Below, piece by piece: positions 48,946 to 61,516 of a DNA stretch of 64,000 nt. The translations under genes were made by a program, and so were the position numbers. Positions within the stretch are counted from its first letter, which is position 1, and every line of letters starts with the position of its first letter. This stretch comes from Halovivax asiaticus JCM 14624. GTDB taxonomy: Archaea; Halobacteriota; Halobacteria; Halobacteriales; Natrialbaceae. The stretch lies in contig NZ_AOIQ01000021.1 in NCBI RefSeq assembly GCF_000337515.1, forward strand, positions 1-64,000, read 5' to 3'. The notes beneath the pieces are model-generated. The model saw only the letters and a list, made by a program, of their open reading frames with translations, was not told the DNA's origin and did no database searches.

Positions 48946-49865
48946 ATGGGTCCTGAGTTCCCGACACCGCAGCCGTTAGACGGCGCCGAGCCGATCGCAC
49001 CGGCCGTGGTCGTCCTCCCCGCCGTCGCGTTCGAGCCGCCGTTCGACGAACGCGAGCTGTGGCTCGAGCGCCTCCCGATCGAGGCGGCCTACGAGATTCC
49101 CAGGGCCGACGGCCCGCTGTACGTGACCGCCGACGGCCGCGTCGCCGTCACCACGACCGGCCTGGGCAAGGCGCCCGCGGCGACCGTCGTCGCCGCGGTC
49201 TGGGGTGCAGCCGGACTCGATCTCTCGGAGACGTACTGGCTCTCGGCCGGGATCGCCGGCGCCGCCCCGGCCAGGGCTGCGCTTGGCTCGGTGGTCGTCG
49301 CCGACGCCATCCTCGACTGGGATCGTAAGCATCGCTGGGATCCGACGGAGCTAGGCCCGCCGACCCAGGAGGACGATGCGGGTGACCCCTCACCCGATCG
49401 CGACGCCGATCGGTCCGCCGTCGAGCAACTCGCGTACCTGCCCGAGGGCGCGCTGTTCGACGTCGATTCGGCGCTCGTCGAACTGGCTCGCGACGCCGCG
49501 CCCGACGTCGAGCTCACGACCGACCGCGCCGTCCGCGACTATCAGGAGACGTACTCCGACGCCCCGTCCAGCGGTCCGGCGGCCGATGTCGGACCGACCG
49601 TGACGAGGACGAGTTCTGGCACGGCACCGGCGTGGCTCGCGAGGTCGACTCGCTCGCGGCGGCCTACGGAATCGAGCCCTACGTCACGACGCAGATGGAA
49701 GACGCGGCCACGGCGACCGCGCTCGGCCGCTTCGACGCCGCCGATCGCTATCTGAGTCTGCGTGCTGTCGCGAACTACGATCGGCCGGCTCCGGGTGAGA
49801 CGGTTCACGACAGTTTCGAGGGAACGACCGACTCGGTCGCACTCGCGAGGGAGAACATGCAGGTT
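48946..49865 (+). pseudogene. Purine nucleoside permease (NUP) family gene, frameshifted and 3'-truncated
   Basis: The first 220 residues have NUP-family character: APAVVVLPAVAFEPPFDERELWLE, VTTTGLGKAPAATVVAAVW and SAGIAGAAPARAALGSVVVADA. At about 49600 the frame must change: after GPTVT the next recognisable stretch, FWHGTGVAREVDSLAAAYGI and YVTTQMEDAATATALGRFD, is in another frame, so a deletion not divisible by three has occurred. At about 49860 family sequence stops abruptly (after SVALAREN) and AT-rich DNA follows, so the C-terminal residues are lost. The ATG at 48946 opens the family region. Either two decay events or one plus a sequencing error. Confidence 0.82.
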
Positions 49866-50060
49866 CCATTTCCGCATATTGAGATCCTTTTATCGACGAT
49901 TTTGTATAACAAGTTTATAGTCATTTGTCAATGTCTGGACTAAGTATGTACTGACATTGGATATATTGATAATTTAAATACTATCTACATTGATGGTCTA
50001 TGTAGGAATTTTCATATGAAGAAGACGCTAATTTTCATATGATTAGAAGGTACGGTAGTT

Positions 50061-50068
50061 TTAAATAA
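50061..50068 (+). promoter_or_regulatory. TATA box of the islet A gene, leaderless
   Basis: TTAAATAA is centred 27 bases before the ATG at 50092, so the mRNA would start at the ATG. The islet gene thus has its own haloarchaeal-type promoter. Confidence 0.55.
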
Positions 50069-50091
50069 AACCCTTCCTAATTATCGATTGC

Positions 50092-50979
50092 ATGCCTGAT
50101 AACAATAACAGGGGAGAAAAGAGGGGAAGTAATGATGGTTCGAATTGCCCTACGAGATCAACTGGCACTAATAACAGGCGTCATTTCCTTAAATCTAGTA
50201 TTGCAGCATCTATTAGTGCTATTGGTGTTATGGGGATAACTAGTGCGGAGTCACGGGACAAAGAACCCAATGCAATTCCCTTAGGTGATGAGGATACCGC
50301 AACTTCGGCCAACGTTTCATGTCATGGCCTTTTACTAGAGGGCTTAGAAGATGATAGTGACTTTTATATTTCATTTAATCAGGAAATGGACAAATACGAT
50401 AGTTTAGAAATAGGGAGGTATATGTCTTCTTCTATAGATAATAATATTGATGAAGATAATCGGCTGATATCGGGGACTGCTGACGAAGGTGAAGTACACG
50501 GGTTTCATGCAACCTCCAGTTGGGTTCTAGATTCCATTTCTATAGAAGGGGATGTTGCACTTGAAATAGTGTACAATCCAACCGATGAATCCCATTGTGA
50601 AGATCTAATTGCACCAGTTCCAGAAAGCATAAACAACCTTGATATTATAGCCCAAGGTACCGGTGAGTATACTTTCGGATTTTGGGGACTAGATGATACT
50701 ATTGAAGAGATTAGTGTCCCATCGGATGGCCAATTCGAAACGTGTATTCCTGCGGGCAGTAATATTATTTGCTACTGGACAGACCATGGGGTACACACTA
50801 AAGAATTAGATCTTGGTCATCCTGATGGACCTATGGACTATGAGTATGCAGCAGCTTCTCCAGAATCATATGACAATTGGCATGAATATACGGTTAATGG
50901 GTCCGAACTTGATATACTTGCTCAACCCTATAGCTATCATTTGAAAAATTGCCAGGTGACCCTGAACTGGGACTGGTAA
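50092..50979 (+). CDS. Tat-exported protein of unknown function (islet A)
   Basis: 295 residues. The N-terminal 28 are Asn/Gly/Arg-rich, then NNRRHFLKSSIAASISAIGVMGITSAE is a twin-arginine signal. The mature part (about 240 residues) is acidic and beta-rich, with six or so Cys residues (VSCHG, SHCEDL, FETCIPAGSNIICYW, LKNCQV) that may form disulphides outside the cell. The segment NNLDIIAQGTGEYTFGFWG resembles strands common in secreted haloarchaeal beta-domains. No transmembrane anchor at the C-terminus, so it is probably released. No family recognised. Codon use is AT-rich, unlike all neighbours except the gene at 60144. Confidence 0.82.
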   Translation: MPDNNNRGEKRGSNDGSNCPTRSTGTNNRRHFLKSSIAASISAIGVMGITSAESRDKEPNAIPLGDEDTATSANVSCHGLLLEGLEDDSDFYISFNQEMDKYDSLEIGRYMSSSIDNNIDEDNRLISGTADEGEVHGFHATSSWVLDSISIEGDVALEIVYNPTDESHCEDLIAPVPESINNLDIIAQGTGEYTFGFWGLDDTIEEISVPSDGQFETCIPAGSNIICYWTDHGVHTKELDLGHPDGPMDYEYAAASPESYDNWHEYTVNGSELDILAQPYSYHLKNCQVTLNWDW

Positions 50980-51457
50980 TAATATCACTAACTCTGTAGG
51001 TCTCAATATTTAAACCATCATCAAACACATTCATAATGGATATGTTGAACTATGAGCGAATATTGTATTACGAATTCTTAATTCAGGCCGTATAAAAGCG
51101 GGTATAATTTATAGTTTGTGACCATTCGGGGAAAATTATTTTATTCGTAACTACCCTGGCTGTTTTTAGCTTTGTTTTATATGGGGTCAGTGATTATCCG
51201 CGAGTTCCTGTCTCAATATCCAAGATCATGTGCCTGAGGAGGCGGTGGAAAACTCGCTAATGATGTCTAATAGTAGTATTGTTCTGAATATGATGTGTCG
51301 ATTGGGCTTCTTAGTTTATGGATCTCCAACACAGAATACGGTGCGTAGATGGTCTCTCATCTAACACCGTCCGAGAAACCACCAAAAATAAATCTATAGT
51401 TTTATCGTCTGTATGTTATATTCTCTAAACAATCCTAATGATGTCTTAAGAAATACT
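50980..51457. other. AT-rich non-coding part of islet A
   Basis: About 480 bases. No open frame longer than a few tens of codons has protein character on either strand. Contains TATA-like stretches (for example GTATAAAAG at about 51090). A short GC-richer patch at about 51190-51260 could be remains of a lost gene. No tRNA, repeat array or transposon ends recognised. Confidence 0.4.
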
Positions 51458-52237
51458 TCAAACAGTGATTTCTAATGCCTCTCTAATATCTAATTTGTCG
51501 TGGACGACGGCGGCAACGGCCCGCGTGATCGCTTCCGGCTCCTCGTGCTGGAAGATCGATCGCCCCATCGAGACGCCGGCGGCCCCCGCGTCCATTGCGC
51601 CACGAACCTGCTCGAGCGTCTTCCGGTCGCTGCCGGGCGTCCCACCGGCGATGAGCACCGGCAGCCGGGTCGATTCGACGACGTGTTCGAAGCTGTCGGC
51701 GTCGCCGCTGTAGCCCGTCTTGACGAGGTCGGCGCCGACCTCCTCGGCGAGGCGAACCGCGTGGCCGAGCGCGTCGGGTTCGTCGCCGTCGAGGCCGGGC
51801 CCACGGGCGTAGGCCATCGCGAGGACCGGAATCCCCAGTCGTTCCGCGTCGGCGGTAACCTCGGCGAGCTGGGCGAGCTGGTCGGGTTCGTGGTCAGAGC
51901 CGACGTTGATGTGGAAGGAGACGGCGTCGGCGCCCGCGCGGACGGCTTCCTCGACCGTGCCGGTGAGTCGCTTGTCGTTCTCGTCCGGGCCGAGCGTCGT
52001 CGAGGCGTTCAGGTGGACGACGTAGCCGGCGTCGTTCTTATTTGGGTGGACGCGGGGGGCGATCCCCTTCTGCGTGAGGACGGCGTCGGCACCGCCTCGG
52101 GTCACCGCGTCGATCGTCGATTCGATCTCTTTCAGTCCGCGGACGGCACCGAGTGTGATGCCGTGGTCCATCGGGACCATCAGGTATCGGTCCCCCGTTC
52201 GAATTCGGTCCAATCGGGCGTCGAGTCCTGCAGTCAT
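51458..52237 (-). CDS. aroA': 2-Amino-3,7-dideoxy-D-threo-hept-6-ulosonate (ADH) synthase
   Basis: 259 residues, fructose-bisphosphate aldolase-like barrel that makes ADH, the first step of the archaeal route to dehydroquinate. Motifs: YLMVPMDHGITLGAVRGL (Asp24-His-Gly), LTQKGI, VSFHINVGSD, and ADLVKTGYSGD with the Schiff-base Lys173, then VLIAGGTPGSDRKTLEQVRGAMDAGAAGVSMGRSIFQH. Last gene of the trpC-trpB-trpA-ADH synthase operon, 23 bases after trpA. The last 13 or so codons (for KLDIREALEITV) are AT-rich (AAA, TTA, GAT, ATT, AGA) unlike the rest, since the islet boundary lies at about 51499. ATG at 52237 starts at family sequence. Confidence 0.94.
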   Translation of the reverse strand: MTAGLDARLDRIRTGDRYLMVPMDHGITLGAVRGLKEIESTIDAVTRGGADAVLTQKGIAPRVHPNKNDAGYVVHLNASTTLGPDENDKRLTGTVEEAVRAGADAVSFHINVGSDHEPDQLAQLAEVTADAERLGIPVLAMAYARGPGLDGDEPDALGHAVRLAEEVGADLVKTGYSGDADSFEHVVESTRLPVLIAGGTPGSDRKTLEQVRGAMDAGAAGVSMGRSIFQHEEPEAITRAVAAVVHDKLDIREALEITV

Positions 52238-59940: not shown

Positions 59941-60107
59941 AAGGGGCTGGTTGCTACCTCAAACGAAGGGGCTCGCACTGATATACTTTCTCCTCCACTT
60001 CTGGCGAATATGGTCATAATGAAGCCTGTAAGTAGCCATCTCATCTCTTGCGACATCGCCACTATCCATTTTCAAAAATTATACATTTCTAATATATTTA
60101 ATATAGA

Positions 60108-60117
60108 TATATTTAAG
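60108..60117 (+). promoter_or_regulatory. TATA box of the islet B gene
   Basis: TATATTTAAG centred about 31 bases before the ATG at 60144; a nearly leaderless mRNA is expected. Confidence 0.55.
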
Positions 60118-60143
60118 TGTGTTCTCTACAAACAACATTTTGC

Positions 60144-60920
60144 ATGGTATCACGACGGAAGTTTGTGGGAGTAATCGCTGCTGCAAGTGGTCTCGGAACC
60201 GTAGGTACAGTTAACGCACGTGGATCAGGAAAAGTATCACTCGCTGAGGCCGGTCTATTGGATGTCGTGAAGGGACTGGCTCAAAAAGGGGAAACCGAAG
60301 AAATGCATAAAATAATGGATGAGAATAATGTGGAATATTATTCTGGATACGATAGTTTAGGTCCTTCAATTAATGCAACTCAATGGTCGAAAGGGGATTC
60401 TGATATGCATGCTACACTAACTCGGGCAAAAGGTGATGATGTTTATTTTGCATCAAACGAAACAACCTTATCCGGGAGTTCTGGTTTGAAAGTCCGTGAC
60501 GCTAGACGTGTAGATGATGCAATCGGGATTGATTGGGACCACGACAATTGGACTCCAACTGGTCGCACTGACTCTAACGTATATTTAAGTGCTTATGGGG
60601 AAATGGCAGATAAAGATTATCTTGAAGTTGAATACGATAATTATTCCTACTATGGAGTAGCAGCAAAGGTGAAATATGACTTTAGTTCCCCAGTAAGGAC
60701 TATGGATACTGAATTTACTGTGAATCTTATGACAGAGTTGATAAAAGAAACAGATGATCCTAGACATGGGGTCAAAAGTCATTATGAACATACATATAGT
60801 GCGACCCCAGGAGCTATAGATATATCCATAGGTGCTGGTGGGTTTTCAGTGTCAACTCCATTCGCAGCAGGAAGTTGGGAGTTAGAAAAAGATTCATTCA
60901 TAGATAATATGCGGGATTAA
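60144..60920 (+). CDS. Tat-exported protein of unknown function (islet B)
   Basis: 258 residues. MVSRRKFVGVIAAASGLGTVGTVNARG is a compact twin-arginine signal with cleavage near Ala-Arg-Gly. The mature part begins with a helical segment SLAEAGLLDVVKGLAQKGETEEMHKIMDEN, then turns into acidic beta-rich sequence (SDMHATLTRAKGDDVYFAS, NVYLSAYGEMADKDYLEVEYDNYSYYGVAAKVKYDF). No Cys and no C-terminal anchor, so it is probably secreted. No family I can name; the helix-then-beta layout recalls Tat-secreted hypothetical proteins found in many haloarchaea. Codons are AT-rich. ATG 60144 is favoured over earlier in-frame ATG at 60117 because the Tat motif follows at once. Confidence 0.84.
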   Translation: MVSRRKFVGVIAAASGLGTVGTVNARGSGKVSLAEAGLLDVVKGLAQKGETEEMHKIMDENNVEYYSGYDSLGPSINATQWSKGDSDMHATLTRAKGDDVYFASNETTLSGSSGLKVRDARRVDDAIGIDWDHDNWTPTGRTDSNVYLSAYGEMADKDYLEVEYDNYSYYGVAAKVKYDFSSPVRTMDTEFTVNLMTELIKETDDPRHGVKSHYEHTYSATPGAIDISIGAGGFSVSTPFAAGSWELEKDSFIDNMRD

Positions 60921-60997
60921 AATATCCATTCTACTATTTATTAAGGAGGATATATTCGTCCGACACACTTTAGCAGAAGTGCCGTAACCTCTTTAGT

Positions 60998-61516
60998 ATG
61001 ACGCGGGGCATCTACATCGGCCGGTTCCAGCCGTTTCACGACGGTCACTACAGCGTCGTGGAACGCATCGCCGACGACGTCGACGAACTCGTCCTGGGTA
61101 TCGGGAGTGCCGATGCTTCGCACGCGACACGAAACCCCTTCACTGCCGGCGAACGCATCATGATGATCACGAAGAGCCTCGCCGGCCTCGACCTGGTCAC
61201 CTACGCCGTCCCCATCGAGGACCTGGACCGAAACGCCGTCTGGGTGAGCCACGTCGAGAGTATGAGCCCCGACTTCGACGTCGCCTACGCCAACAACCCC
61301 CTCGTCATCCAGCTTTTCCGCGAGGCCGGCGTCGAGGTTCGCCAGTCACCCATGTATGATCGTCACGTCCTCGAGGGGAGCGAGGTGCGCGAGCGCATGA
61401 TCGACGACGGCGACTGGGAGTCACTCGTCCCCGACGCCGTCGTCGAGGTCGTCGACGAGATCGACGGGCTCGAACGCATCCAGATGGTCAGCGACACGGA
61501 CGCGAACGGCGCCTGA
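60998..61516 (+). CDS. nadM: Nicotinamide-nucleotide adenylyltransferase (archaeal NMNAT)
   Basis: 172 residues; makes NAD from NMN and ATP. The nucleotidyltransferase motif is YIGRFQPFHDGHYSVV, and the second block ATRNPFTAGERIMMI is conserved, with SGS-like EGSEVRERMIDDGDW (the ISSTxxR-equivalent) near the end. Archaeal NMNAT length. Divergent from lonB across islet B; converges on the NUDIX pseudogene. Confidence 0.95.
   Translation: MTRGIYIGRFQPFHDGHYSVVERIADDVDELVLGIGSADASHATRNPFTAGERIMMITKSLAGLDLVTYAVPIEDLDRNAVWVSHVESMSPDFDVAYANNPLVIQLFREAGVEVRQSPMYDRHVLEGSEVRERMIDDGDWESLVPDAVVEVVDEIDGLERIQMVSDTDANGA

Follow-up and report, generated by a model that had tools for sequence, protein, structure and literature searches.

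How does a gene for a biosynthetic enzyme come to finish its coding sequence in DNA of another composition, and where did this end come from? The question is raised by a synthase gene in the window, by which we mean the whole 64,000-nucleotide stretch of Halovivax asiaticus JCM 14624 that was analysed. The gene (51458..52237, minus strand) encodes a 259-aa ADH synthase (AroA'-type, 2-amino-3,7-dideoxy-D-threo-hept-6-ulosonate synthase), which acts in the aromatic-amino-acid pathway. The protein matches the TIGR01949 equivalog over its full length (profile 2-255 of 255; 361.8 bits, cut-off 299.45), as well as the structure of MJ0400 (PDB 2qjg; E 3.8e-66), with an alignment that extends through EAL.

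Composition and neighbourhood of the synthase end

The C-terminus of the synthase reads ...AVVHD|KLDIREALEITV*, and the last 12 codons with the stop (51458..51496, minus strand) are 28% GC, compared with 69-72% for the gene body up to codon 247 and 34% for the 200 bp downstream. The third-position GC content switches sharply at codon 248, with no gradient. A sequence-only reading of the same DNA had noticed this switch inside the gene, correctly, and had marked it as 51458-51520; the AT-rich part ends at 51496, and 51497-51520 is GC-rich. Ends of this kind are rare. Only two of 95 distinct haloarchaeal synthase tails are AT-rich, that of the window (GC 0.28) and that of the congener G004 (0.31), which ends in NVEIDTSLEKVEVNH; the next lowest value is 0.57. 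Tails below 45% GC were found in only seven of 836 GC-rich genes surveyed, and the three most extreme of these are ends flanking this type of islet in the window and in G004. Both synthases switch at codon 248, a comparison of these two genes only.

Beyond the stop codon lies an AT-rich islet (49878..51457; about 27-48% GC in 100-bp windows), delimited by synteny and by a blastn match to congener DNA that is interrupted between 49859 and 51498. The islet occupies 1.6 kb of the window and fills the gap between the synthase and a convergent gene of the nucleoside permease family (NUP). It has one recognisable ORF (50092..50979, plus strand), which would encode a 295-aa secreted protein with a probable twin-arginine (Tat) signal, judged from the NNRRHFLKSSIAASISAIG motif and a weak match to Pfam TAT_signal (E 0.033); the other islet frames that were tried have no Pfam match. 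Across 392 genomes of the order, strong matches to this ORF came only from the window's own genome, from G004, where it lies in the same place, and from G318, a genome of another genus in which the homologue sits elsewhere, in addition to two weak matches. Peptide patterns of the ORF gave no hit in a genome contig collection, which may omit records close to the window. There was likewise no match to the ORF among plasmids, or to the islet DNA in plasmid and phage collections. A single-sequence structure prediction for the ORF reached a mean pLDDT of 30.

Five genomes make up the sample of the genus. In two of these, G003 and G001, the islet is absent, and the synthase and the convergent NUP gene face each other across a short gap, with GC-rich native synthase tails. 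The islet is therefore present or absent at a syntenic site among congeners, and the AT-rich tail belongs with it, as the sequence-only reading had proposed; neither islet-free relative has the same tail. Further genera of the family have the same convergent pair, which makes the neighbourhood an old one; the gaps there range from 12 bp to 3 kb and, at 50-68% GC, lack the AT-richness of the islet. In G001, repeat units of about 25 bp, GGCCTGCTTAGCACTCGTGGGCACG, stand in tandem in the gap, immediately after the synthase stop codon (L031:9920-10110).

G004 has a 2.2-kb AT-rich islet in the same place, with an ORF about 46% identical to that of the window islet, and the gene ends on both sides of it, those of the synthase and of NUP, are AT-rich yet homologous. 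Since the flanks of the two islets share almost no DNA, their common origin is argued from position, ORF homology and the codon at which composition switches. A further, diverged ADH synthase-like gene (66% identical; L034:5175-5951) is present in G004, and other paralogues occur in related genomes.

Boundaries on the two sides of the islet

The synthase gene contains a second boundary, which composition does not reveal. G003 is the closest relative of the window here, with flanks about 92-95% identical, and the two synthases differ at 20 of 590 positions before nt 590 (3.4%) and at 29 of 150 after it (19.3%), a contrast reached by none of 2000 shuffles (permutation P<0.0005). Third positions behave in the same way, with 17 differences in 199 before nt 597 and 19 in 47 after. 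This GC-rich 3' tract (51497..51648, minus strand), recognised from difference counts, permutation and alignment, has diverged from G003 as if from another species and lies at about the same distance from G001, G003 and G004. When other pairs are compared, the tract is again a rather variable portion of the gene, though far less sharply so. A recombination breakpoint within homologous flanking DNA is seen on the synthase side only. The jump at nt 590 implies that the stretch exchanged with the islet would begin within GC-rich sequence, about 150 nt in, so that, relative to G003, the true boundary appears to lie that much further inside the gene than the composition switch. Positions 51497-51520 accordingly seem to belong to the gene body by composition and not by ancestry, because the whole stretch up to about 51648 diverged as described. 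A composition boundary within a gene need not be a recombination boundary, and here, as measured against the nearest relative, the two are about 150 nt apart.

On the other side the junction is abrupt. The NUP remnant (PF06516; 48901..49943, plus strand), defined by Pfam and by alignment with G003, has lost its native C-terminus at the islet edge, about 49877; identity to G003 reaches GAGAACATG and ends abruptly there. Relative to G003, it also carries a frameshift near 49600 (49590-49620), with one base absent near GTGACGAG, and the gene looks broken. Matches to NUP in G003 and G002 were also reported with an internal stop.

We suggest, with a probability of roughly 0.7, that the AT-rich end is the edge of an islet-bearing allele of the NUP-synthase gap, which congeners swap by homologous recombination inside the synthase gene. 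In this model, islet-bearing and islet-free alleles would be exchanged between species of the genus, and a crossover at about nt 590 of the synthase would make the islet and the final ~190 nt of the gene travel together. In the window lineage the far side would have ended abruptly within NUP, perhaps by illegitimate joining. The direction of transfer and the donor we infer, and the recombinant could instead be G003. The switch at the same codon in the window and G004 suggests a single old junction, which would have been made once, in the ancestor of both islet alleles.

Events of this kind are known, and a gene end swapped together with an islet by recombination would be a real but modest addition to them. 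Recombination between species is described in Halobacteria (PMC4500145), and a combination of homology on one side and illegitimate joining on the opposite one is known from three bacteria with natural competence and from E. coli conjugation (PMC3240628). A homologous synthase side and an abrupt, non-homologous NUP side are the expected outcome of such homology-facilitated illegitimate recombination. The cases in that report concern linear DNA becoming integrated in laboratory bacteria, whereas the event in the window is read from sequence only. The displacement of C-terminal ends in rhs genes, as described in PMC2935791, is similar in that a conserved core is kept while the end and the downstream DNA are replaced by recombination; it differs in that only the last ~190 nt are involved in the window, the new end and the one it replaced are homologous, and the gene encodes a biosynthetic enzyme. 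The locus may serve as a small example of how accessory islets can pass from one haloarchaeal species to another and leave a biosynthetic enzyme with a usable end.

Nature of the new end

A different origin for the tail would be chance: an insertion or deletion could have removed the gene end, with translation running on into unrelated AT-rich DNA, so that the 12 codons are meaningless or were adapted by selection later. An open run of 12 codons should be common in DNA of such composition, and the window's NUP gene appears to finish in plain read-through, its tail being no better than random when set against 14 native tails (P 0.61). The synthase tail does not behave in this way. KLDIREALEITV resembles native tails more closely than do 99.9% of random AT-rich peptides (P 5e-4), and the resemblance holds when peptides read from the islets themselves serve as the background (P 2e-3). 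The G004 synthase tail likewise resembles native tails (P 4e-4, versus AT-rich random peptides), as does the G004 NUP tail with the native tails of its family (P 9e-4, same 14 references). A chance of 5e-4 is small, yet selection among numerous events, or adaptation afterwards, could bring about a value as low as this; set against it, three tails resemble native ends and both synthases switch at the same codon. We therefore consider read-through a rather unlikely origin. The window tail appears to be an in-frame replacement homologous to the native end, resembling the C-terminal helix of the family at P about 5e-4, and may derive either from the gene of an AT-rich relative or from read-through later adapted by selection.

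The sequence-only reading had also expected the frame to be kept and the C-terminus to be plausible, and both expectations were borne out by a tail homologous in kind, by the full TIGR01949 coverage and by a predicted helix at residues 251-258. The structure model, built with native homologues in the alignment, has a mean pLDDT of 83.2, and about 90 in the tail block. Like other members of the TIGR01949 / MJ0400 family, the window synthase is full-length and has the conserved C-terminal EAL helix; the tail still encodes this last helix (VHxxxDIxEALE), and what is missing is only the usual haloarchaeal extension AGLALEA (AGL.LEA). Since the helix is still encoded, the enzyme probably keeps its function despite the altered tail.

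Integrative elements and other origins

The islet might, in a more specific version of exchange, bring along replacement ends of its own, AT-rich and homologous, one for each convergent neighbour (G004 shows both), and so be exchangeable without an integrase and without breaking either gene. We regard this as unlikely, at about the level of read-through. Should the pair of replacement ends in G004 turn out to be general, it would suggest how islets that have no integrase can stay exchangeable.

The sequence-only reading had likened the locus to integration at an attachment site. The synthase 3' end would then be the site at which a site-specific element inserted, supplying a replacement end and later losing its integrase and most of its genes. 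The in-frame tail homologous to the native one, the shared switch codon in two lineages and the accessory DNA in the islet would all fit such an element, as would an IS6-family transposase remnant within the G004 islet (L033:8580-8795). End-restoring integrative elements, reviewed in PMC8371274, similarly provide a usable gene end from foreign DNA. They differ in what accompanies that end. The one recognisable ORF of the islet is not an integrase, none was found with Pfam in the other frames tried, and no direct or inverted repeat marks its edges, which share no 9-mer in either the window or G004. A displaced native synthase end, which the sequence-only reading had thought might persist at the other edge of the islet or elsewhere, was absent from the islet by profile scan and from the whole of the window's own genome by DNA search. 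Identity to G003 is lost about 150 nt ahead of the composition switch, the islet matches nothing in the plasmid and phage collections, and viral contigs searched for the islet ORF or the synthase gave no match, though a short tail could be missed. Moreover, the main targets of archaeal tyrosine recombinases are described as tRNA genes (PMC8371274), and here the target is protein-coding. Attachment-site integration is thus quite improbable, though an element eroded in full might still look like this. One 29-bp match (90%) to the native tail, on another contig of the same genome, was taken as chance; the long ORFs there include no synthase.

The weakest explanation, local AT-biased mutation beside an old islet that eroded the neighbouring gene ends in place, has in its favour that the genes flanking the G004 islet on either side end in AT-rich DNA that is still homologous, and is very improbable given the abrupt third-position switch at one codon, the recombination breakpoint, and the lower AT content of the few other 3' ends beside AT-rich stretches (GC 0.47-0.67). 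The idea that, as a general rule, a gene next to an AT-rich stretch is itself AT-rich at its end was also set aside, as the few further cases, drawn from about 2 Mb, disagree with it; the numbers are tiny.

The window has a second AT-rich islet (60001-61000; about 40% GC), located between LonB and an NMN adenylyltransferase-like gene and bearing a probable secreted ORF (60117-60920). This ORF has no match in G001, G002 or G004. In G003, the ORF at its place is only 40% identical, although the flanks are about 93% identical.
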